From a virus: 64,000 nt of DNA. Numbering within the stretch: position 1 is the stretch's first letter; the number at the start of each line of letters is the position of its first letter. The stretch covers positions 62,001 through 126,000 of the IMG/VR virus record IMGVR_UViG_3300024239_000014. The stretch is one strand, 5' to 3'. The notes under the pieces were generated by a model that saw only the letters and a list, made by a program, of their open reading frames with translations, made no database searches and was not told where the DNA came from. Below, piece after piece: positions 10,509 through 62,833 of the stretch. The translations under genes and the position numbers were made by a program.

Positions 10509-10653
10509 GGCAGTTCCTCAAACTAAGGATAAAGGGTAGGGCGGTTTATCGTATGGTACCTACCCTCTGACGGTAACATTCAGCCATAGATTGAGAGGGT
10601 GAAATACGCTTTTTATTCCCCCATTCAGTCCGATGGTCCACACGGAGTCGCCC

Positions 10654-12576
10654 ATGATCGTAAAGAATTTTGCATGGCCCCTTGACCCTCACGCGTCAAG
10701 CGTAGACAACTACATCAAGGGCGAACGTCATGTTATCACTGCTGCCAACGGCAGCTCGTACCGCGTTATCATGCCTCGCGGTGCCCCTTTCTTTGTTAAA
10801 GACCTGAAGGTCACCTTTGTTCCCATGAATCGCGTTCTTCAAGAGAACGTCGATTATGCACTTGGTTACCAGTTTGAATTGATTAGTCGCCGTACCTACA
10901 TGCCGGTGTTCTGCGGTATTGTGATCCTCGACCACACCCTTTCCGGTACCTTTGAAATCGAGTACCGCACCCTAGGTGGTGAATTTACTCTGGATCAGCA
11001 GTCACTGGCCACGCTGCTGTCCAATGCCATTACCGATCCGCGCACCACCAGCTGGGAAGCGTTGACCGAAGTGCCGTGGTACTTCACGCCTATTGAGCAC
11101 CGCTTTGACGTGCAGGATATGGTCGGGATGTCCGGCGTGGTGGCTGCGGTTGACCGTATTTCTGCTGCACTGGCCGCACGTGAAACCGAAAATGAACTCT
11201 TGATTGAGCACATTCAGGAAACCAATAATCCGCACGGGACGGATAAAGAGCAGATTGGCTTGGGTCTTGTCCCGAACTGTCGCATGGCCACCGAGGCCGA
11301 AGCGTTGGCCATGCTTCGTACAGACCTCTTCTTGTCTCCGGCACACATGGCGATCGTACTGGCCCGGTTGAACAGCGAGACAGTGGCTGGTCATGCGGCC
11401 GACCGCAATAACCCACACTTCGTGACCAAGGCGCAGGTGGGTCTGCCGAATGTCGATAACTTCCCGACAGCAAACGACACCCAAGCGATCGACGTCAATA
11501 ATGACAACACTTTCGTGACACCACGTAAAGTGTGGCTCATGATTTCGACACGGGTGTTGGCGGCCATCAACGGTCACATCGCTGCTACCGGGAACGTCCA
11601 CGGATTGAATAAAGGCGATATCGGTTTGGACAAGGTGTCCAACATCGGTAAGGCCTCAGCTGTGGAGCTGGATAACCCGGCCAACCTGGATACTCATTAT
11701 CCGACCATTGCAGGTGTGGTGCGCATCTTTAACCGCATCTTCGGCGATGCCTTTACGTCTCACGCAGGCGCCAGTAACCCGCACAGGACAAGTAAAGGAG
11801 ACATCGGTCTCGGCGAAGTCCCGAACTACGCGGTTGCCGGTGCGGCAGAAGCGTTGTCCAACAGCGGTTCTCACTTTTCGACACCTCTGACAACTTACCT
11901 CCAGATCCAAGCGTTTGGCGGCGGCGTCGCTGAGGTCGAGAATAAGGTTGACGTTACCGGTACCTTTACGACCGATGACTTGAACAAGTACCTGCGCATT
12001 GCTCAGCCGTCGGATGGTACGTACTACGTTGGTCCCGATGCTACGGCTAACTGGCCAGACCATGCCACCTTGAACTTGCGTGCAGCTGGCCCTGGGATCT
12101 TGACCTTGGCCGGTAGTGGTGGGGTAACCCTCCATGCGCCAGCTGGTGGTAGCCTTCGTTTGGCGCCGGGTATGGCTGTATCGCTTAAACGCATCGCAGT
12201 CGATTCCTGGGATGTAATCGGCCAGACGATCAGTACTACGCCGGTGGGTACAGGTAATTCACGCATTGTCGTTAAGACACTCACTGACGTGGCTTACACG
12301 TTTGGTTTGGACGATGATGGGTCCTACCTGCGCCCAGATACCGACGTAGTATCTGAATACACCGTCCCGTCTCAAGCGGTTGTAGCTTGGGAGAATGATA
12401 CCGAAATCCATCTCCATAAGGCGGGTGTGAGTACGCTTATTCTAGCGGCTATGCCAGGAGTGACGCTCAATCCACCGGCTGATGGCACACTCCAGGTTGG
12501 ACCGTCGATGACGGTGGTTCTCAAACGTGTCGGTGTCAACATCTGGGATGTCGTCGGCCAGACCATCAGTCTGTGA
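10654..12576 (+). CDS. Tail fibre protein with NPH-type repeats
   Basis: 640 residues from the ATG at 10654 (GGAG 7 bases upstream; the ATG at 10633 lacks a site). Residues 1-170 form a virion-anchor domain that is recognisably shared with the fibre at 29844: a PLD-containing start, a xxFxxKxxxV strand, then G-T/E-FEIEYRTLGGEFT. Four copies of the fibre repeat NPHxxxKxxIGLxxVPN follow at ~191, 252, 314 and 375. The C-terminal third contains two copies of a ~100-residue beta domain, each ending W-D-V-(I/V)-G-Q-T-I-S. The pattern is that of a trimeric side or long tail fibre for receptor binding. It is the first gene of the long plus-strand adhesin unit. Confidence 0.85.
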   Translation: MIVKNFAWPLDPHASSVDNYIKGERHVITAANGSSYRVIMPRGAPFFVKDLKVTFVPMNRVLQENVDYALGYQFELISRRTYMPVFCGIVILDHTLSGTFEIEYRTLGGEFTLDQQSLATLLSNAITDPRTTSWEALTEVPWYFTPIEHRFDVQDMVGMSGVVAAVDRISAALAARETENELLIEHIQETNNPHGTDKEQIGLGLVPNCRMATEAEALAMLRTDLFLSPAHMAIVLARLNSETVAGHAADRNNPHFVTKAQVGLPNVDNFPTANDTQAIDVNNDNTFVTPRKVWLMISTRVLAAINGHIAATGNVHGLNKGDIGLDKVSNIGKASAVELDNPANLDTHYPTIAGVVRIFNRIFGDAFTSHAGASNPHRTSKGDIGLGEVPNYAVAGAAEALSNSGSHFSTPLTTYLQIQAFGGGVAEVENKVDVTGTFTTDDLNKYLRIAQPSDGTYYVGPDATANWPDHATLNLRAAGPGILTLAGSGGVTLHAPAGGSLRLAPGMAVSLKRIAVDSWDVIGQTISTTPVGTGNSRIVVKTLTDVAYTFGLDDDGSYLRPDTDVVSEYTVPSQAVVAWENDTEIHLHKAGVSTLILAAMPGVTLNPPADGTLQVGPSMTVVLKRVGVNIWDVVGQTISL

Positions 12577-29843: not shown

Positions 29844-31922
29844 ATGCCTCAGAATTTGGTGATTAAGTACCCTCTTGACCTGTCAGGGAATAACCCCACG
29901 AACCTGGTCAAGAATGAACCGCACACGATTGAGCCTACGGCCACGAATCGCGGTTTTGCATTGAACTACGGCCCTTTCTACACCAAGAGTGTAGTGGTCA
30001 AACACGTGGAATCAGGGAACTACCTGAGACCACGCCTGGATTACCTGTGCCTCCATCTGGATGAAATCGCTACGCGTGAATCTGGATACGAGGTCTGCAT
30101 CGCCATCCTCATTACCAACCAGACCTACAATGGTGAATTTGAAGTCACCTATCAGGTCGTGGGTGGCGAGTACAGTAGCTACGTGTCAGTGATTCAGCAG
30201 CTGGTAGAAGCACTCCAGCTCGATGACCGTCCTGTCAAGTGGGGCGATGTGATTGGTAAGCAGGATGAATACCCACCTGCGCCACACCTGCATACCCCGG
30301 ATGATCTGTACGGCTTTGAATTCCTTGTTGACGCATTGATGCGTCTGCACCAGGCGATTCTGCACGGCGATGCAACAGATCATGCGCAGATGAGACAAAA
30401 CATTCTCAATGCGCGCGCTTACGCCGAGCAATTGGCCGCCGGTGTACGCGAAGTCCTCGATCTTCACGTTACCAACCAGAACGATCCTCACAACGTCACT
30501 AAACTCCAGGTGGGTTTGGGGAATGTCGATAACTTTGCTACCGCCACGCCAGAAGAAGCGGCCAGTGCAACGGTGGCTAATAAGTTCCTGACGCCAGCGT
30601 TGTTGCATGGGGCAATACCGAACAGTTTGCCGATTACCCAGATCAATGGCGAAATTCAGCGTTTGTGGGACGCCATCAACGCCATCAACGCCATCCTCGC
30701 CCTCGGCAAGGGCACCACCACGATCTGGAACACCCTGACTGCGTGGTCGACACTGCGTCAGACGATGGCGGTGGCAAGTCGTAGCACGACTGTGCTTATC
30801 CCGGCTGGCCCGGATCGAACCAGTTCGTGGAATACTTCTTTCACAACTGCGTGGTCGTCTGATCGCCTGACAAACCGCATGACATCCATCGGTAGCAACT
30901 GGAACACGTCCTTCACTCAGAACACGACACGAACTACAAACGTGTCGGTGGTGACGGTATGGAACACCAATACGTCCCGCAACACCGGGTACAGTAAGGT
31001 GACCCAGACGTCTGAGAATATCGTGCAGAACACGTCAGTGTCATCAAGTAAGATCACGTCGTATCAGACCAGTTGGACGACGGAGATGGGGGTGGTAACC
31101 CGTACTTCTTCGTGGGTGACCGGTTTCTATTCGATCGCTTATATCGGACGTGAAACGTCGACTACAAACTACCAACAAGTATGGCAGGAACAGTCGAAGA
31201 ACACGAACACGTCGTGGTACAGTTACACTCCCATTGTGTCGTACCGTGCAGATGGGGCCGGCGGTAACGGGTGGCAAACGGTAGGTTTTACCCGTACGCT
31301 TAAATCACGTACGACGTCAACGACCGTAGGGCCGAGCAGCCGTGCCACGCAAACGACCTTTGCCACTGAATGGACCAGTGGTGGTTTCCGTCAGATGATC
31401 ATGACATGGAAAACCACGAGTACGCAGATTGGTGGCAACGTGTCGGCGTATGTCAGTACGACCTTCAACACTAACTTCTACACTGCGTTCCCGAAAGAAA
31501 GGTCCACATCGACCACAGTCTCGTCGCCGAACCTGGTACCTATGAGTCGCCAGACCAGCAAAACGACCAACACCACATTTAGTCGTGTGACATCGTTTAA
31601 CCAATCGCGCGACACCACCACGGCATGGACCATTGCTACGTCTTGGGCTACTCAGTATTCCAAGACAACCGCATGGGATCGTACCACGGACGTGATCACC
31701 AACATTGTTCAACAGACCAGTAATGCAGCAATGGTGCAAACCAACTTCAATACTGCTGTTGCAATGTCCAAAAGTACATCTGTGGTCACATCTGTGACAG
31801 TGGCTGGAGATAGCGAACGCCATAGTTCACGCCAGACCTCTTGGGATTCGACGTGGGGTACTGAGGCGAACACCAGCCAGATGACCCAGTTCATCCGCAA
31901 CACGCAGACGAGCTTTACGTAA
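29844..31922 (+). CDS. Tail fibre with Thr/Ser/Trp-rich repetitive shaft
   Basis: 692 residues, AGGAG site. Residues 1-190 are the same virion-anchor domain as in the fibre at 10654 (YPLDLSGNNP, FYTKSVVVKHVESG, GEFEVTYQVVGGEYS). One DPHNVTKLQVGLGNVDNF repeat (~213) follows, then a helical linker (WDAINAINAILALGKG). From ~295 to the end the chain is highly biased: Thr, Ser, Asn and Trp in irregular repeats such as TSSWNTSFTTAW, TVWNTNTS, TSYQTSWTTEMG, SRQTSWDSTWG, about 400 residues. Such composition suits a long beta-solenoid or coil and offers many hydroxyl acceptors. Six genes downstream encode sugar-transfer-like and radical SAM enzymes. Confidence 0.8.
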   Translation: MPQNLVIKYPLDLSGNNPTNLVKNEPHTIEPTATNRGFALNYGPFYTKSVVVKHVESGNYLRPRLDYLCLHLDEIATRESGYEVCIAILITNQTYNGEFEVTYQVVGGEYSSYVSVIQQLVEALQLDDRPVKWGDVIGKQDEYPPAPHLHTPDDLYGFEFLVDALMRLHQAILHGDATDHAQMRQNILNARAYAEQLAAGVREVLDLHVTNQNDPHNVTKLQVGLGNVDNFATATPEEAASATVANKFLTPALLHGAIPNSLPITQINGEIQRLWDAINAINAILALGKGTTTIWNTLTAWSTLRQTMAVASRSTTVLIPAGPDRTSSWNTSFTTAWSSDRLTNRMTSIGSNWNTSFTQNTTRTTNVSVVTVWNTNTSRNTGYSKVTQTSENIVQNTSVSSSKITSYQTSWTTEMGVVTRTSSWVTGFYSIAYIGRETSTTNYQQVWQEQSKNTNTSWYSYTPIVSYRADGAGGNGWQTVGFTRTLKSRTTSTTVGPSSRATQTTFATEWTSGGFRQMIMTWKTTSTQIGGNVSAYVSTTFNTNFYTAFPKERSTSTTVSSPNLVPMSRQTSKTTNTTFSRVTSFNQSRDTTTAWTIATSWATQYSKTTAWDRTTDVITNIVQQTSNAAMVQTNFNTAVAMSKSTSVVTSVTVAGDSERHSSRQTSWDSTWGTEANTSQMTQFIRNTQTSFT

Positions 31923-31937
31923 CAAACTCACCTATGT

Positions 31938-31955
31938 AGGGGGCTTCGGCCCCCT
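31938..31955 (+). terminator. Terminator after the repetitive fibre
   Basis: AGGGGGC/GCCCCCT, 7-bp stem with the very stable TTCG tetraloop, followed by CATTTATT. Partial readthrough would feed the modification genes. Confidence 0.7.
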
Positions 31956-31976: not shown

Positions 31977-32225
31977 ATGGACAAATCCGTTGCTATCGAA
32001 TTTGAAAAGCTCAACACACGCGTTGCCGAGCTTGAAAAGCGCCTGGTTGCTGCTGAGGAACAGGCAAAGAACGCCGAGCAATTGGCACAAGAGTCGTTGC
32101 GCCTTGTTGAACGTGCGTCATCGCTCCTGGTGGAACATATCGCTACCTTCGATACCCGTGTGGCGGAAGCCTCGGATATTATCGTGGCTCGTGTGACCAA
32201 GCAGATCCCGCACTTGATGTTGTAA
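31977..32225 (+). CDS. Small coiled-coil protein
   Basis: 82 residues from the ATG at 31977 (GGAAG upstream); a TTG two codons earlier is less likely. Nearly the whole chain is a heptad-patterned helix (FEKLNTRVAELEKRLVAAEE and on) ending in ARVTKQIPHLML. It lies between the repetitive fibre and the modification block, so it may be a fibre chaperone, a trimerising cap or an adaptor that recruits the enzymes. No direct evidence distinguishes these. Confidence 0.6.
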   Translation: MDKSVAIEFEKLNTRVAELEKRLVAAEEQAKNAEQLAQESLRLVERASSLLVEHIATFDTRVAEASDIIVARVTKQIPHLML

Positions 32226-32240
32226 CGGAGTAGTTGACCC

Positions 32241-33104
32241 ATGAGTGATAGCAATAAAAAGAAAAAGGCTTCGTTGGACATTGTCCTGGCTAACACTTAT
32301 GCTTCTGAAGCCAATAAGGTAGCACACAGCGGGTACCTGACTCGCGCCGGTAAGATTCGTGAATCAAACCGCATTGCTGAGCTGCTGGTGGCCGGGGCCG
32401 CGAAGCGCAAGATCAAAATCCAGTACGATATTGCTTACGATGGCCATCCTCATGAGTTATCGTTCACGGAATGCTTTGGTGGCATGGGTGGTGTTTATAT
32501 CAGACCTGCGGACAGCAACCTGTCGCGGCAGATGCTGGCTTCACCGTTTAGAGCAACTCGTGATATCAACTTTCTCTTGAATGCTGAAGACAAATACGCG
32601 CAGCTACCCATCCACTGTCCGGTTGATCACGTGATCTTCCTGCCCGGTACGAACCTTCTGGATCGGTATAAGGCCGAAGTGTTCCGACCCTATTACAGAG
32701 AAGGCGTTAAGGTCAAACCACACCCCATCACGAGCGAGTATTTCCGTTTTCTGCTCCTGCGTGAATTTGGTTCAGACGTCCTTCCTCTTAAGGGTTCGGC
32801 ACAGTCGATCCTAAAGCAGGTGAAAGAAGTCACCGTGACGCAGCACACGGAGATGGGTCTTTACGCCCTATTGCAAGGCAAGAAGGTTAACGTCATCCCA
32901 GCAATGAAGGGACTGTTACCGGTGTACCGGTACTTCTACGAAACAGGTGAGCGCCTCAAGGAGGTGTTGTCGTCCCACCTGTCGGGTTTGTTCTTCATGA
33001 ACGATAACATCGAAGAACAGATCGAAGAATGGTTCGATTATTATCAATCCCAGTCCCAACTGCGTCAAACACGTTTCTTCGACGTGTTTGGAGGTAAACG
33101 ATGA
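32241..33104 (+). CDS. GT-B-like glycosyl- or glycerophosphotransferase (KPHP motif)
   Basis: 287 residues, ACGGAG site. The C-terminal half carries KVKPHPITSEY (157-167) and then VTVTQHTEMGLYALLQGKKV (~200-219). This KPHP followed by a S/T-x-x-x-E/S-A-L-x-x-GK-x-V segment is the nucleotide-sugar-side signature of capsule/teichoic-acid-type transferases and related surface-carbohydrate enzymes. The N-terminus is Lys-rich and soluble, with no membrane segment. The gene overlaps the next by 4 bases (ATGA), so the five downstream genes are translationally coupled to it. Donor and acceptor are unknown. The assignment rests on motif pattern, so it could be a divergent member. Confidence 0.6.
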   Translation: MSDSNKKKKASLDIVLANTYASEANKVAHSGYLTRAGKIRESNRIAELLVAGAAKRKIKIQYDIAYDGHPHELSFTECFGGMGGVYIRPADSNLSRQMLASPFRATRDINFLLNAEDKYAQLPIHCPVDHVIFLPGTNLLDRYKAEVFRPYYREGVKVKPHPITSEYFRFLLLREFGSDVLPLKGSAQSILKQVKEVTVTQHTEMGLYALLQGKKVNVIPAMKGLLPVYRYFYETGERLKEVLSSHLSGLFFMNDNIEEQIEEWFDYYQSQSQLRQTRFFDVFGGKR

Positions 33105-34054
33105 TTCTGTTCTCCTGCACTAACCGCGCTTATCAGGACGTGTCCTTGGTTTGGGCTCATTCGTTCAAGAACAGCTGCGAGAAGTTCGAAAACAATAAGA
33201 AGTTCACACCAATTCTTTTTTGCACGACCGATGTCGATACCGAACTCTTTGCTGATACAGGCATTGAAATTCGGTACTTGCCCACCATTGGTGGGGTGGA
33301 AGAAGGATTGTTCAATCAGACGACCACCGAAGGGATGGTGATGCGACTGAAAGCCATGGATCTCTTGCACGCTGAAGGCGTGGAAAAGGTCGCGTACATG
33401 GACACAGACACTTTGATCCGTGGTGACATCAGTGAATTGTTGTTGGCACCACTGACGCCCGAGAAACCAATAGCAGCGGCTTCCGACTTCGTGTACATCG
33501 ATGACGACCGCCTGGGATCGACGTACCAACAAATCGTCCCCGATTATCCGCGCAGAACATCGATCAACAAGAAGTACTTCAACTCCGGTGTGATGGTTCT
33601 GCTTCTAAGGCCGTTGGTGGAAGAAACCAAACGCTACGGCTGTACGTCGTTGGAATCCTTTTATCTGAAGCACAAGGAAATGTGCCGGTTCCCTGATCAA
33701 GACGCACTCAATAAGCTGGCAAGGGAATATGTCGGCCTACCGCGTCGGTACAACTTCTTCCCTGAGCTGCACATCTTCGCGATCATGTCCAGTGATGAAC
33801 TAATGCACCACCGTGCACGTATCTTCCGTGAAGGGGTGATCGTGCACTTCTTGTCATTGTTCAAACCCTGGGTCAAACATGATTATGTTAACACGGCAAC
33901 AATGCAAGTCCCATTTGAAATGTACTGGGAAGCATTGAAGCCCATCCGACACAAGCTGTCGCCTTCGTTCGTTGAAAATGTGCGTTATAACGTGGAAACG
34001 CATCGCATCATCATCGAGCAGGCCAGACACGGTCATTACAACGCCGAGGATTAA
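33101..34054 (+). CDS. Glycosyltransferase family 8-like enzyme, copy 1
   Basis: 317 residues; GGAGG upstream and a 4-base overlap with the preceding gene. GT-A fold features: short beta strand MILFSCTNRAY, then EGMVMRLKAMDLL, the metal-binding DxD in VAYMDTDTLIRGD (D101, D103), INKKYFNSGVMVLLLRP, FPDQDALN, and HFLSLFKPW near residue 253. These are the hallmarks of glycogenin/LgtC-type retaining transferases. Two more genes in the block (34781 and 35748) share the same start, DxD, FN(S/A)GVM and QDPLN/QDALN landmarks. The substrate is unknown; location suggests a virion protein or a surface glycan. Confidence 0.8.
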   Translation: MILFSCTNRAYQDVSLVWAHSFKNSCEKFENNKKFTPILFCTTDVDTELFADTGIEIRYLPTIGGVEEGLFNQTTTEGMVMRLKAMDLLHAEGVEKVAYMDTDTLIRGDISELLLAPLTPEKPIAAASDFVYIDDDRLGSTYQQIVPDYPRRTSINKKYFNSGVMVLLLRPLVEETKRYGCTSLESFYLKHKEMCRFPDQDALNKLAREYVGLPRRYNFFPELHIFAIMSSDELMHHRARIFREGVIVHFLSLFKPWVKHDYVNTATMQVPFEMYWEALKPIRHKLSPSFVENVRYNVETHRIIIEQARHGHYNAED

Positions 34055-34055
34055 C

Positions 34056-34883
34056 ATGGCCGACGTTACAGTGATCATTCCAGCTTCTCGAGCTTTTACC
34101 TTAGAAGAGTGTTTGGTACACCTTAAGAGAAGCGTCGGGGTAACCTATCGCCTGATTGTAGTGCTGGCAAATCGTGATCCAGCATTGCGTAAACTGGCTC
34201 AGGGCGCCGGGGCTGAGATCATTGAACATTATGCCAAAGGTGACCAGCATAAGGCCAGGGCAATTGCCCTGGCCTCTGTAACCACCGAATTTGTTCATTT
34301 CTTAGATGACGACGATTTCATCTGCCCTGAATTCTTAAGAGACGGTGTTGCACTACTAAGAGATGATTCTACATGTGGCGTTGCGTTCAGTCTGCCATTT
34401 AAATCGGTGGGTGTTAGGAACGTACTCATTGGTCCGCATTTTCAAGCAGGGTTTGTTAATCCAAGCTGCACGATTTATCGCACCAAGATGATCCGTGAAG
34501 TCTTTGCGATGCTACCTGAGCCGGTGCTTTCCTCTTCTGAGGACAAGTTGTACACGCTTGTGTTAGCTTCGATCTTCCGTGCGAAATTCCGGTGTTTCAG
34601 AGCACCTGTAGTCCGCGGTTCCTTCGTAGAGAACCGGAAGGTCTGGGACACCCTAATGTCGAAATCTCTCTACGACTTTTGGTACCGGATCTTGCTACTT
34701 TTACCGGAATATCAAGACGATGCCGTTGCTGATCATTACGTCAGAACGGTATTGGCAGAAACCCGACAATGGTACACCCGATGCGTCACCTACTCTTTAC
34801 CTGTATCAATCGACATTATGAAAATCAGGGGATCGTTTGGTTATCAGCACTTAGAACCTTGGCCCAATCAGCACCAGTGTTGA
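34056..34883 (+). CDS. Glycosyltransferase family 2-like enzyme
   Basis: 275 residues from the ATG at 34056 (GAGG upstream), one base after the preceding stop. An inverting GT-A fold is suggested by VTVIIPASRAFTLEECLVHL (4-23), KARAIALASVTTEFVHFLDD, with the acidic DDDD cluster at 84-87 as donor-metal site, and a later SCTIYRTKMIREV. Its last 34 codons overlap the next gene in another frame. The C-terminal tail from residue ~242 (WYTRCVTYSLPVS) shows no family resemblance, so it may be an overprinted extension. Fits a sugar-addition series with the three GT8-like genes. Confidence 0.75.
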   Translation: MADVTVIIPASRAFTLEECLVHLKRSVGVTYRLIVVLANRDPALRKLAQGAGAEIIEHYAKGDQHKARAIALASVTTEFVHFLDDDDFICPEFLRDGVALLRDDSTCGVAFSLPFKSVGVRNVLIGPHFQAGFVNPSCTIYRTKMIREVFAMLPEPVLSSSEDKLYTLVLASIFRAKFRCFRAPVVRGSFVENRKVWDTLMSKSLYDFWYRILLLLPEYQDDAVADHYVRTVLAETRQWYTRCVTYSLPVSIDIMKIRGSFGYQHLEPWPNQHQC

Positions 34884-35779
34884 AGGATTGTCGGATCATT
34901 CTTTTCCACGCCCACGATGTAAATCTTCAGCGATTTAAAGACGCCTTCCCTGACATCGAGTACCGTCTCGTCAAAAGTCCGATCGAAGGTAAGACCAAGC
35001 TGTTCAGCGCTCCGGTTAGCGAAGGAATGTGCTTGCGCATTGACGCTATGGATCAACTAATCCAAGAAGGAGTTGACAAGGTAGTCTACTCTGATGCCGA
35101 TGCGGTGTGGTTCAAGGATCCTGCCAAATTGTTCGACACACCGGTTGACGCGGTTCATCGTTTTGCAGCGGTACGCGACATGGTGTATCAAAAGCACCCT
35201 GAGTTTAAAGAAGCCTACCCCATTGCATGTCGCGATTGGGGTCACCGACAGGCTATCAGTGACAACTACTTCAACTCAGGTGTGATGGTTGTTTCGCTCA
35301 AGGGGTTATCGGATTACCTAACACTATTGGGTAATGCGTCACTGACAGAATACGTACAGCAGAACCAACACCGGTACCTCTTTCCGGACCAAGATCCGCT
35401 GAACGAACTAGGCCACAATCGCATCGAGCTTCCACGCGAATTCAATGCCTACATTGATCACGTGGTCGGTCATTCGATGACTGCCTGTGAAGTAATGGAA
35501 AACCGTTACAAGATTTCGCAGTCTGCTATCATTCATTGGATCACCATGACCAAACCCTGGTTACATGAACGTGAACCGAGTTTGACTAGCGCTGCCATGC
35601 CCCACGAGAAGTACTGGGAAGCTATGCAACCCGTACTGGAGTTTCTTGATGGGGGTTTTATTAAAGCTGTCTCGATCAAGCTTCGGCAGTATGCCCACCT
35701 CGTGGAGCATGCCAAGCGCGATTTCAAGGAAGTCGGAGGCTACCACCATGACACGTACCGTTGTTTCGTGCGTAAATAA
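34781..35779 (+). CDS. Glycosyltransferase family 8-like enzyme, copy 2
   Basis: 332 residues from the ATG at 34781, chosen because MRHLLFTCINRHYENQG aligns with the starts of the other two copies; an in-frame ATG at 34769 is possible. Ribosome sites are weak for both, consistent with coupling to the gene it overlaps by 103 bases. Landmarks: EGMCLRIDAMDQL, DxD in VVYSDADAVWFKD (D105, D107), DNYFNSGVMVVSLKG, FPDQDPLNELG, HWITMTKPW. It also carries a long C-terminal helix (KLRQYAHLVEHAKRDF). Same presumed chemistry as copy 1 with a different donor or acceptor. Confidence 0.78.
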   Translation: MRHLLFTCINRHYENQGIVWLSALRTLAQSAPVLKDCRIILFHAHDVNLQRFKDAFPDIEYRLVKSPIEGKTKLFSAPVSEGMCLRIDAMDQLIQEGVDKVVYSDADAVWFKDPAKLFDTPVDAVHRFAAVRDMVYQKHPEFKEAYPIACRDWGHRQAISDNYFNSGVMVVSLKGLSDYLTLLGNASLTEYVQQNQHRYLFPDQDPLNELGHNRIELPREFNAYIDHVVGHSMTACEVMENRYKISQSAIIHWITMTKPWLHEREPSLTSAAMPHEKYWEAMQPVLEFLDGGFIKAVSIKLRQYAHLVEHAKRDFKEVGGYHHDTYRCFVRK

Positions 35780-36653
35780 GGCGTACAGTGATCCATTAAA
35801 AGTCTGGCTCAGTGTAATGGCTGAGCAACCCTCGCACCCTCACGTGATCCTGTATCACGCCAGCGACATTGATCCCAATGATTTCCCCACCTCAGTGGAG
35901 GTCACGTGGCGGTTGCTGGATGTGCCTACTCAGAAGTCCACCAGACCTCATCGCCGTCAAGGTATCCTGATGCGGTTTCTGGCGTTCGATGATCTCCATG
36001 CGCGCAAGATGACCCACATCGTGTACATGGATCTCGATGCGTTACCTTTTGGTAACCTGTCACCACTTCTGAATGTGCCGGTGCGTGCATCCTCACCCAT
36101 TGCCGCTGTACCTGATTTGGTGTTCCTGGGGTCTAAGCAGTACGACGCGTACTACGACCGGAGTCGTCCTGAAATCGTACATCGTTTGAACTTCAATCCG
36201 CGGTATTTCAATGCTGGGGTGATGGCGATTTATTTGCCAGGACTCTATGCGCGGTTAAACGGCAAGACGTTGTACGAGTATTGGGAAGAAAACAAACACC
36301 GGTACTTGTTTCATGGTCAGGACCCATTGAATGAACTGGTACCTGATTATACGCCTTTACCGGCGACCTTTAACGCCTTTGCCGATCTGTACATTGCACC
36401 GAAGATGACTGAACATCAACGTGAGTTGCACACCTCGGTGATTAGCAATGCCGCTATCGTGCATTGGCTATCCAATACAAAGCCGTGGGAGGCGCTTAGC
36501 AACATTCCAGTTGCTTGGGCTATGATGCCTCACCAGTTGTACTGGGATGCAGCACAACGCGTTTTAGACCGCTTAAGCGAGGGGTTTGTAACGGCACTTA
36601 CTGAAAACCTCCGACGATACGAGGAACTGACGCATGACGAAGCCGTTGTGTAG
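35748..36653 (+). CDS. Glycosyltransferase family 8-like enzyme, copy 3
   Basis: 301 residues from the ATG at 35748 with CGGAGG upstream; it overlaps copy 2 by 32 bases. Landmarks: TVVSCVNKAYSDPLKVW, GILMRFLAFDDL, DxD in VYMDLDALPFGN (D95, D97), NPRYFNAGVMAIYLPG, HGQDPLNELVP, HWLSNTKPW. The metal-binding acids are intact, so it is probably active. The acceptor side (middle loop) differs most among the three copies, as expected for sequential sugar additions. It overlaps the radical SAM gene by 20 bases. Confidence 0.78.
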   Translation: MTRTVVSCVNKAYSDPLKVWLSVMAEQPSHPHVILYHASDIDPNDFPTSVEVTWRLLDVPTQKSTRPHRRQGILMRFLAFDDLHARKMTHIVYMDLDALPFGNLSPLLNVPVRASSPIAAVPDLVFLGSKQYDAYYDRSRPEIVHRLNFNPRYFNAGVMAIYLPGLYARLNGKTLYEYWEENKHRYLFHGQDPLNELVPDYTPLPATFNAFADLYIAPKMTEHQRELHTSVISNAAIVHWLSNTKPWEALSNIPVAWAMMPHQLYWDAAQRVLDRLSEGFVTALTENLRRYEELTHDEAVV

Positions 36654-37677
36654 GGCACCGTTCACGACCTTTAACCACAAACCCGAAGGGTATCGGCCGT
36701 GTTGTCAACGTCAGAACCCGGCAGTAGTGCACACCGATGGTAACTGGTGGAATTCTGAATACCTGCGTGAATTCAGGAAATCCATGTTTTCCTACGACAC
36801 CCTATCAGACGTGTGTAAGCGGTGTTACGACCGCAAAACTGCCGATGATCCGGGATACAGTTTACCATTCGATCTCAAGGACTATAACCCCAAGACGGGC
36901 GAAGTATACGCACCGCCGAAACAAGTGCTGGTTTTTACAGGCACAAAGTGTGATCTGGCTTGCGATATGTGTGATTCGACTTTTTCGGATACGCATGCGA
37001 AGGTTTATCCTGACCGCATCATCGATATCGATGTGGTTACAGAAGACTCAGCCAGGCACATCATCGGCCGGTACAACCCAGAACAGGTGGTGATCTACGG
37101 TGGCGAACCTTTTGTTAGCCGTGAACTGTACCCGTTGGTACAGCTTGCTTTAATGAAACGGTCATCCATCACGTTCTTGACGAACGGTAACCGCGATCTG
37201 GCTAAACACCCGGTGTTTAAAGAGCTCGTACTGCCGAACGCTACTCGTTTCTCATTTATCTTTTCGATAGATGGGACTGCCGATGTCAACGAACAGATCC
37301 GCAAAGGAGTACGCACTGAACAGATCCTCAGCAATGTTGAATTGTGCAGAAGTGAAAAGATTTGGCACGAACTCCATTTTACGTGTTCGAAGCTTAATGC
37401 GCATAACCTGACTGCTTTCGTCCGTTGGGTTTTATCGCTCGAGTGTTACATGGTCCCGTTCTTTTCGCTCTCAGTAGGGATTGTCGATTTTCCGGATGAT
37501 TATCGTGCAAGTACCTTGCCGATGGGCGAACGGTTATCAATCTCCCGCGACCTTTGTGCGTTAAAGGAAGAAATCAACTCGGCAGTAGACGCTGGAACCA
37601 TGGTGTTTACACCCAAACAGTTTTCTGACTTGATGACGGGACTGGATGGCACACTTGCTTCGTTGGATTTAGAATAG
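36634..37677 (+). CDS. Radical SAM enzyme with extra N-terminal Cys cluster
   Basis: 347 residues, GAGGAA site, last gene of the modification block. Core motif CDLACDMC (C106, C110, C113) matches CxxxCxxC, which binds the 4Fe-4S cluster that cleaves S-adenosylmethionine. VVIYGGEPF (~163-171) is the GGE SAM-binding motif, and FSFIFSIDGT (~207) fits a later barrel strand. The first 65 residues hold CRAPFTTF, YRPCCQR and CKRC (C6, C23, C24, C61, C64), a SPASM/twitch-like set that may hold an auxiliary cluster but is unusually N-terminal. Such enzymes modify peptides, sugars or nucleotides. Coupled to four glycosyltransferase genes, it may modify the sugar or the acceptor residue. Confidence 0.85.
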   Translation: MTKPLCRAPFTTFNHKPEGYRPCCQRQNPAVVHTDGNWWNSEYLREFRKSMFSYDTLSDVCKRCYDRKTADDPGYSLPFDLKDYNPKTGEVYAPPKQVLVFTGTKCDLACDMCDSTFSDTHAKVYPDRIIDIDVVTEDSARHIIGRYNPEQVVIYGGEPFVSRELYPLVQLALMKRSSITFLTNGNRDLAKHPVFKELVLPNATRFSFIFSIDGTADVNEQIRKGVRTEQILSNVELCRSEKIWHELHFTCSKLNAHNLTAFVRWVLSLECYMVPFFSLSVGIVDFPDDYRASTLPMGERLSISRDLCALKEEINSAVDAGTMVFTPKQFSDLMTGLDGTLASLDLE

Positions 37678-37686
37678 GGACATAAG

Positions 37687-37710
37687 CGGGAGGGCCTTTT
37701 GGCCCTCCCG
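37687..37710. terminator. Bidirectional terminator hairpin
   Basis: CGGGAGGGCC/GGCCCTCCCG, 10-bp stem with TTTT loop, between convergent genes. CATA on the left pairs with TATG on the right, extending the stem. No clear U tract. Confidence 0.75.
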
Positions 37711-61546: not shown

Positions 61547-62833
61547 ATGTCTAATCTGCTGAAAGATCTGCTGAAGAACCAAGGCCTGGCTCTGGAAAGC
61601 GAAGAAGTGGTCGGCGCCCCGGTGGAAGAAGTACCTGCCGAAGAAGCCCAGGAAGCTACTGACGAAGTCGTGGCTGATGCGGATGCCATCGGCGAAGCCG
61701 GTGCAGATGCCGACAAGGTTGAAGAAGCCGTCGCCTCCCTGGAATCGCTGTGCCTGGCCATGGAAAGCGCCCTGAAGACCACCCGTGGTATGTCTGCTCG
61801 TGAGCTCGCCATGACTCAGCGTGCCGCCGCCTACGCGGTTGCTTCACTGGGCGTCGCAGTACCTTCCCACGCGGTATCGCTGGAATCGATCGAAGAAGCC
61901 GAAGCCCTCCAGGCCGTTGAACCGCCGGTCGCCCCAGTGGCCGAACCGGTCGAAGGCGAAGAACTCGATCCGGCCGTCGTCGCCCGTCAGGAACGCACCG
62001 AAGTCGCTCTGGAAGGTTTCAAGGAAATGGCCAGCAAACTGGCCGAAACCCTGAAAGCTCTCTGGGCCAGAATGAAAAACATGCTGGTCGGCTTCTGGAA
62101 GAAACTGACTGACTGGTCTGGCATCCAGATCAAGCGTGTTGCTGCGCTGAAGAAGAAAGTTGAAGCCGCCAAGCCGGTGAACGGTAAGGTCGACTCCACC
62201 AAGCTGGCGGGTATTTCTTCGTTCGTTGGTGGTAACCTGTCTTCCAGCAACGCAGCGGGCGCTGCTGCCACGCTGGCTTCTGTTACTAACGAAATTCTGA
62301 ACGGTTACGGCAAGAACCTGGTACACGCGTTCCGCGCCGTGGTCACTGCTGAAGGTCAGCAGTCTGACCTCCCCACGCTGTCCGTAAATCTCGGCACTAT
62401 CACCGGTCTGAAGATTGTCGAAAAGGATGGTGCCTACGCCATCGAGACCGTTAAGACCGGCGAAGTCAAAGGTGCAGTACAGGTCGATAAAGCCGACCTG
62501 GAGAAGATCTGTACTTCCCTGGAAGCTGCACTGAAGGCCGTTCAGGCCTACCGCGCGATCTGGAAGGAAACCGAAGGCGCCGCTGAAGCCGCGATCAAGG
62601 CCGTTGAAAACTACGGCAAGAAGACCGAAGGCGAAGCTGCCGGTAGTGCTCTGGCCAAAAACATGGTTAGCGACACCAAGAAGGCAATGAGCGCTGCCAG
62701 CAAACTGCCCGTCTCCTGGGGTAAGGTAGTGACCAACGGCACCAACGGCTTTATTAAGTACGTTGAAAAGGCCCTGAAAGCTACCGGCAAATCTCTCGGT
62801 GAAACTGAAGGCAAAGAGCTCGCTACTGCCTAA
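61547..62833 (+). CDS. Inner-head / capsid-targeted structural protein, copy 1
   Basis: 428 residues, AAGGAAC site. Very Ala/Glu/Lys-rich. N-terminus LLKDLLKNQGLALESEE parallels the adjacent gene's MLKELFAQSGLTLEGD, a shared leading peptide like the capsid-targeting sequences of protease-processed internal virion proteins in phiKZ-like phages. Cleavage-like S/A-x-E sites include VASLES (~65) and AVSLES (~107). A shared EGFKEMASKLAETLKALW segment (~154) matches ESFRESARQIWEVVKKWW in the neighbour. It ends with helical Ala/Lys repeats, and a terminator follows. The strong bias and tandem paralogue support an abundant structural protein. Confidence 0.65.
   Translation: MSNLLKDLLKNQGLALESEEVVGAPVEEVPAEEAQEATDEVVADADAIGEAGADADKVEEAVASLESLCLAMESALKTTRGMSARELAMTQRAAAYAVASLGVAVPSHAVSLESIEEAEALQAVEPPVAPVAEPVEGEELDPAVVARQERTEVALEGFKEMASKLAETLKALWARMKNMLVGFWKKLTDWSGIQIKRVAALKKKVEAAKPVNGKVDSTKLAGISSFVGGNLSSSNAAGAAATLASVTNEILNGYGKNLVHAFRAVVTAEGQQSDLPTLSVNLGTITGLKIVEKDGAYAIETVKTGEVKGAVQVDKADLEKICTSLEAALKAVQAYRAIWKETEGAAEAAIKAVENYGKKTEGEAAGSALAKNMVSDTKKAMSAASKLPVSWGKVVTNGTNGFIKYVEKALKATGKSLGETEGKELATA

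Follow-up and report, generated by a model that had tools for sequence, protein, structure and literature searches.

Gene clusters that bring together tail fibers, glycosyltransferases and radical S-adenosylmethionine (SAM) enzymes are on record in phages. The host-recognition clusters of pelagimyophages, reported in 2020, contain tail fibers, glycosyltransferases rich in family GT8 and radical SAM cassettes, and were interpreted there as modifying the host O-chain or lipopolysaccharide (LPS) (PMC7029224). Virion glycosylation is reported for mycobacteriophages (Freeman et al. 2023, Cell Host Microbe, as cited in PMC12619734), and at least two glycoproteins were detected by proteomics in the Xanthomonas jumbo phage XacN1 (PMC5852040). 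The subject of our analysis is a block of genes in the virus record IMGVR_UViG_3300024239_000014, a jumbo phage of 249,640 bp; our window, the whole stretch of DNA analyzed, is its positions 62,001 to 126,000 (64,000 nucleotides). Downstream of a gene for a fiber with a Thr/Ser-rich shaft, this block encodes a KPHP-motif protein, a GT8, a GT2, two further GT8 enzymes and a radical SAM enzyme. From sequence and gene context we consider it likely that the block modifies the fiber shaft, probably by glycosylation. The original prediction stated that no described phage system with this exact set was known to its author, a statement that needs correction in view of the pelagimyophage clusters. Clusters of fiber-linked glycosyltransferases and radical SAM enzymes had thus been reported already, and what we present as new is the link between the KPHP gene and Thr/Ser repeat proteins. 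Full-text literature searches for the combination of radical SAM, glycosyltransferase and jumbo phage returned no paper, and those on Thr/Ser-rich fibers returned nothing relevant, in a collection whose coverage leaves out most subscription papers.

The evidence that carries this reading comes from the genomic neighborhoods of the KPHP gene, homologs of which occur in phages of different families, including KVP40 (Straboviridae), Lullwater (Autographiviridae), marine phages and jumbo phages. We clustered the KPHP homologs at 60% identity, counted a cluster if at least 1 kb of upstream sequence was present, and defined a Thr/Ser-rich gene as one with at least 45% Ser+Thr in 60 amino acids. Of 19 independent clusters, 11 have such a gene no more than 2 kb upstream of KPHP, against an expectation of 1.57 and a maximum of 7 in 20,000 draws; the same upstream arrangement was seen for 0 of 1798 open reading frames (ORFs) in phage loci that lack KPHP. 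These figures are descriptive and do not amount to a blind test, because the thresholds were fixed after the pattern had been seen. The upstream proteins are mostly made of tetrapeptide repeats of the form [NST]-T-[ST]-x (tetrads), and in several of the other clusters the upstream position is taken by a large structural protein with a lower Ser/Thr content.

The converse scan of viral contigs utilized a DNA pattern for T-S-x-x repeats that was chosen after several patterns had been tried on KPHP loci and was tuned on those known loci, KPHP itself not being used as a filter. It identified 6 contigs whose ORFs reach 10 or more tetrads per 100 amino acids. KPHP lies no more than 1.6 kb away in 5 of them, and the sixth contig stops 610 bp downstream of the repeat. 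Since L427 and L461 are nearly identical and L427 was already in the KPHP set, these contigs provide about three fresh independent cases. An initial repeat search, which required Thr at every fourth residue, gave mainly TPTP and other repeats lacking KPHP and served as a control; no KPHP was found alongside the TPTP, SGTS and DTTS repeat proteins in their contigs. When 41 jumbo-type records were searched whole, full-length KPHP was found in the source genome and in five records that had been chosen for it, with a fragment in another (G019). Dense tetrads were detected by pattern in G001 and G005 only, both of which carry KPHP; the remaining four KPHP-bearing jumbo records have weaker repeats that this pattern does not pick up. 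Within the fiber family of the jumbo phages KPHP is absent with few exceptions, and none of 55 pattern matches in bacterial genomes encodes a KPHP relative.

The fiber (29,844 to 31,922, plus strand, as are all genes of the block; 692 amino acids, phrog_2163 at 3.7e-78) is proposed as the acceptor because KPHP tracks repeat proteins across unrelated phages. Its head (amino acids 1-254) belongs to the fiber family of phiKZ-like and other jumbo phages and is about 34-40% identical to the fibers of DT01, SNUABM_54, Goslar and others. Its shaft is rich in Thr, Ser, Asn and Trp (23% Thr, 38% Ser+Thr) and holds 14 [NSTQ]T[STA][WYFRH] tetrads, compared with 3.4 ± 1.7 in shuffled sequences (maximum 11, n = 2000), with an autocorrelation of aromatic residues at lag 4 (z = 3.9). 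Among the 247 ORFs of the genome this fiber has the highest Ser/Thr content, and the next seven have at most 1 tetrad each. Such a shaft was not found in the named jumbo phages of the fiber family that we inspected, and the shaft alone gave no match as a tblastn query with the low-complexity filter on. A second fiber of the phrog_2163 family, without a Thr/Ser-rich shaft, is encoded at 10,633-12,576 of the window.

The closest relative is a 206-kb phage (G001) whose proteins are 39% (KPHP) and 30% (the first GT8) identical to those of the block. The GT8 compared is the one that follows KPHP in that phage. Elsewhere in G001 the genes for a tetrad protein of 1025 amino acids, another KPHP and a radical SAM enzyme lie side by side with that for a 1464-amino-acid fiber, the head of which is homologous to our fiber (32%, 6e-26) and is followed by a long tetrad shaft. 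The expectation that a relative with the same shaft should carry the block was borne out here, in that a homologous fiber with a far stronger shaft adjoins KPHP and a radical SAM gene. The original prediction, which proposed fiber glycosylation with a radical-SAM-dependent step, is supported in part: the KPHP/repeat association and this relative favor the fiber as acceptor, and the attachment of sugar, the order of steps and the radical SAM chemistry are inferred.

The six genes were found at 32,241-37,677, tightly coupled, as had been claimed. The KPHP gene (32,241 to 33,104) overlaps the first GT8 gene (33,101 to 34,054; PF01501, 4.3e-17) by 4 bp, and a gap of 1 bp separates the latter from the GT2 gene (34,056 to 34,883; PF00535, 3.2e-7). 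The second GT8 gene (34,781 to 35,779; PF01501, 3.7e-18) has an alternative start at 34,769; taking the start at 34,781, it overlaps the GT2 gene by 103 bp. It shares 32 bp with the third GT8 gene (35,748 to 36,653; PF01501, 5.3e-22), which in turn overlaps the radical SAM gene (36,634 to 37,677; PF04055, 3.5e-8) by 20 bp. The original description of a six-gene block 0.3 kb past the fiber was right about these genes and too narrow in extent, since it overlooked in the gap a seventh gene, which encodes an 82-amino-acid coiled coil (31,977 to 32,225, from the ORF list). A terminator-like hairpin at the boundary between fiber and enzymes (31,938 to 31,955, plus strand; 7-bp stem, a consensus match only) and a perfect hairpin with a 10-bp stem and no T-run (37,687 to 37,710, no strand assigned, read from the sequence) flank the gene set, and for this reason 31,977-37,677 looks like a separate operon behind the fiber. 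We count the coiled-coil gene as part of the module, with possible counterparts at the equivalent place in other KPHP loci: its position and a loose EH(I/L/V)xxxDxR motif are common to L180, L191, L223 and KVP40.0255, at 9-22% identity and with no invariant column.

All three GT8 proteins exceed the PF01501 cut-off (63, 66.5 and 79 bits against 24.3) and retain the DxD motif (YMDTD, YSDAD, YMDLD), in agreement with what had been predicted for them and for the radical SAM motif described below. The second is a paralog of the other two (31-34% identity), and the genome contains no other GT8 match. The GT2 protein exceeds the PF00535 cut-off (30.9 against 23.3 bits) and has an FLDDDD motif. Features taken as criteria for virion glycosylation, namely glycosyltransferases with intact motifs and a linkage between transferase and acceptor genes beyond chance, were both found. 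The same enzymes could instead modify host surface polysaccharide (the LPS O-chain or core) to exclude competing phages, the proximity to the fiber then reflecting a host-recognition island. Enzymes of the GT8 family typically belong to LPS biosynthesis, a weak match to an LPS 3-alpha-galactosyltransferase model was obtained for two of the three (6.7e-5, 8.4e-7), and host-surface modification is the published reading for the pelagimyophages (PMC7029224). However, it leaves unexplained why KPHP is linked across families to Thr/Ser repeats and not to fibers generally, and we regard it as rather unlikely. A search of the genome for a nucleotide-sugar pyrophosphorylase and a CMP-sugar (cytidine monophosphate-sugar) synthetase gave no match, which also counts against LPS modification, although host sugars could serve either explanation.

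The KPHP protein itself is probably a GT-B-like glycosyltransferase, as judged from its structural neighbors. It matches PHROG_26179 (2.1e-28), a family of unknown function, and has no Pfam match; its homologs keep the invariant K-x-H-P and E204, and weak Capsule_synth and GT52 Pfam matches, below the cut-off, occur in homologs and not in the protein at 32,241. Its AlphaFold2 model has a pLDDT (predicted local distance difference test) of 88.9, and the neighbors of this model among viral structures in BFVD include a capsule synthesis protein (3e-4). Small genes after fibers often encode assembly chaperones and KPHP has no confident enzyme family, so that KPHP and the coiled coil might be assembly or trimerization factors for repeat shafts, with the glycosyltransferases as unrelated neighbors. 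We find this very improbable in view of the invariant residues, the GT-B-like structural neighbors, the weak matches in homologs and the glycosyltransferase or radical SAM companions of KPHP in several lineages. A GT8 gene follows KPHP in L180, L191, L223 and L238, the one in L180 being a relative of the first GT8 of the block and following directly; a GT29 gene adjoins it in L198; and a radical SAM gene lies directly upstream of it in the L027 group and also accompanies it in KVP40. These neighborhoods place the KPHP gene at the center of a recurring module whose accessory enzymes vary. In L191, L223 and L238 we also observed, close to the genes for the repeat protein and KPHP, membrane proteins that resemble fatty acid desaturases and have HRVLTH-type motifs.

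The radical SAM enzyme exceeds the PF04055 cut-off (34.2 against 29.5 bits), has an intact CX3CX2C motif (C106-x3-C110-x2-C113) and carries an N-terminal twitch-type four-Cys domain with invariant Cys 6, 23, 61 and 64. Against NF033640 (N_Twi_rSAM) it scores 117.4 bits over residues 4-309, under the cut-off of 170, so by sequence it resembles this twitch-domain subfamily and is not assigned to it. PADLOC gave only a weak viperin-type match, to this protein; its predicted structure was discarded as too poor (pLDDT 56). Scans of viral contigs for close relatives with single proteins (radical SAM, the third GT8, KPHP) gave no matches.

This enzyme, perhaps with KPHP, might modify the shaft peptide in the manner of a ribosomally synthesized and post-translationally modified peptide (Ser/Thr oxidation, epimerization or cross-linking), the glycosyltransferases acting later or elsewhere. 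In favor of peptide modification, a radical SAM cassette immediately follows a gene of the same fiber family in DT01 and in 15 of the 36 jumbo records, and 2-oxoglutarate (2OG) oxygenases and a small CHTS/CHSS-repeat protein often accompany it; L248:7447-10738, which joins a radical SAM gene, a possible 2OG-type gene, a Thr/Ser-repeat protein and KPHP, is a possible link between the cassette types. The DT01-type enzymes, however, have no BLASTP match to the radical SAM of the block, and the block is dominated by glycosyltransferases; we consider peptide modification distinctly unlikely.

Some features of the jumbo-phage cassettes were recorded in their own right. The PF04055 matches over the cut-off in the 15 of 36 fiber-bearing records are no farther than about 12 kb from the fiber, by contig ranges. 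Cassettes downstream of this fiber family were seen at L020:14126-24513, L110, L115, L118, L126, L131, L138 and L159, often with 2OG-oxygenase or cupin genes, and small proteins ending in CHTS/CHSS repeats and RGRR are encoded at L020:15168-15704, L131:13049-13753 and L159:13499-14032; these are possible substrates of the adjacent radical SAM enzymes.

Phage glycosyltransferases are also known to modify hydroxymethylated bases (reviewed in PMC12619734), and the enzymes of the block could glycosylate phage DNA. The sole gene of the thymidylate synthase family has its matches among PHROGs of ordinary thymidylate synthases, and no hydroxymethylase was recognized in a search that did not extend to other base-modifying partners. 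The location in the fiber region and the tracking of repeat proteins by KPHP also speak against DNA as the substrate, which we hold to be extremely improbable. Separately, a thymidylate synthase gene is split in two at G000:C1:151913-153931 (L014), with a homing-endonuclease-like ORF of 285 amino acids in between; the locus has no Rfam match, and an intron or another insertion may account for the split.

If the block does glycosylate the shaft, KPHP would recognize the Thr/Ser tetrads and add or prime a sugar on Ser/Thr, perhaps aided by the coiled-coil protein. Elongation of the glycan by the GT2 enzyme and the three of family GT8 would draw on nucleotide sugars of the host, which are proposed because neither nucleotidyltransferase family searched for was found in the phage, and the twitch-type radical SAM enzyme may oxidize or otherwise remodel the sugar or a shaft residue.

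Several observations weigh against shaft glycosylation. The tetrads of our shaft are degenerate, and in G001 the coiled coil-KPHP-GT8 set that resembles the block lies about 100 kb from the fiber, the KPHP next to the fiber being a second, divergent one. The Foldseek neighbors of the KPHP model in the PDB are mostly GT-B enzymes, the best at E 0.012 and none at E ≤ 0.001; as there is neither such a match nor a family above the curated cut-off, we infer the glycosyltransferase role of KPHP. The relatives have different sets of glycosyltransferases. In viral contigs, most relatives of the radical SAM enzyme lie away from repeat proteins, and on that account KPHP, not radical SAM, is the constant partner. 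Finally, KPHP and the repeat proteins might be neighbors because both reside in a hypervariable region for host recognition.

With less than even confidence we suggest that tetrad-repeat fibers and a dedicated KPHP form a widespread, unrecognized mucin-like virion glycoprotein system, in which swapped GT8, GT2, GT29 and radical SAM enzymes diversify the surface and radical SAM remodels the glycan or shaft residues. The rule to test is that a phage encoding an [NST]-T-[ST]-x repeat protein should have an adjacent KPHP transferase. The proposal provides a candidate function for PHROG_26179 and a rival to the host-LPS interpretation of fiber-linked glycosyltransferases in abundant marine phages, and sugar-coated fibers, if they exist, would matter for receptor binding and for the immune recognition of phages.

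Compared with the known systems, the block resembles the pelagimyophage clusters in having fibers, GT8-rich glycosyltransferases and radical SAM in one hypervariable region; these differ in their host-LPS interpretation and in that the available text of PMC7029224 describes no link to Thr/Ser repeats or KPHP. The mycobacteriophages share virion-protein glycans attributed to phage-encoded glycosyltransferases, but their glycans are reported from experiment on the C-termini of capsid and tail tube proteins, whereas in our block the proposed acceptor is a Thr/Ser repeat fiber shaft, with KPHP, three GT8 enzymes and a radical SAM enzyme. XacN1 is likewise a jumbo phage with glycosyltransferases, its acceptor and genes not being linked (PMC5852040). 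The Pseudomonas phage pPa_SNUABM_DT01 has an enzyme cassette directly after the same fiber family, but this consists of six radical SAM enzymes and 2OG oxygenases, with no GT8 or KPHP recognized in the stretch examined, and its substrate may be the small CHTS-repeat protein. KVP40 differs in that no GT8/GT2 run was recognized and in having a QueC-like gene and annotations as hypothetical or queuosine-related; yet its genes 0254-0261 and 0272-0274 encode, as in the block, a Thr/Ser tetrad-repeat protein, a small coiled coil, a KPHP homolog and twitch-type radical SAM enzymes, and as a cultivable phage it makes the idea of fiber glycosylation testable.

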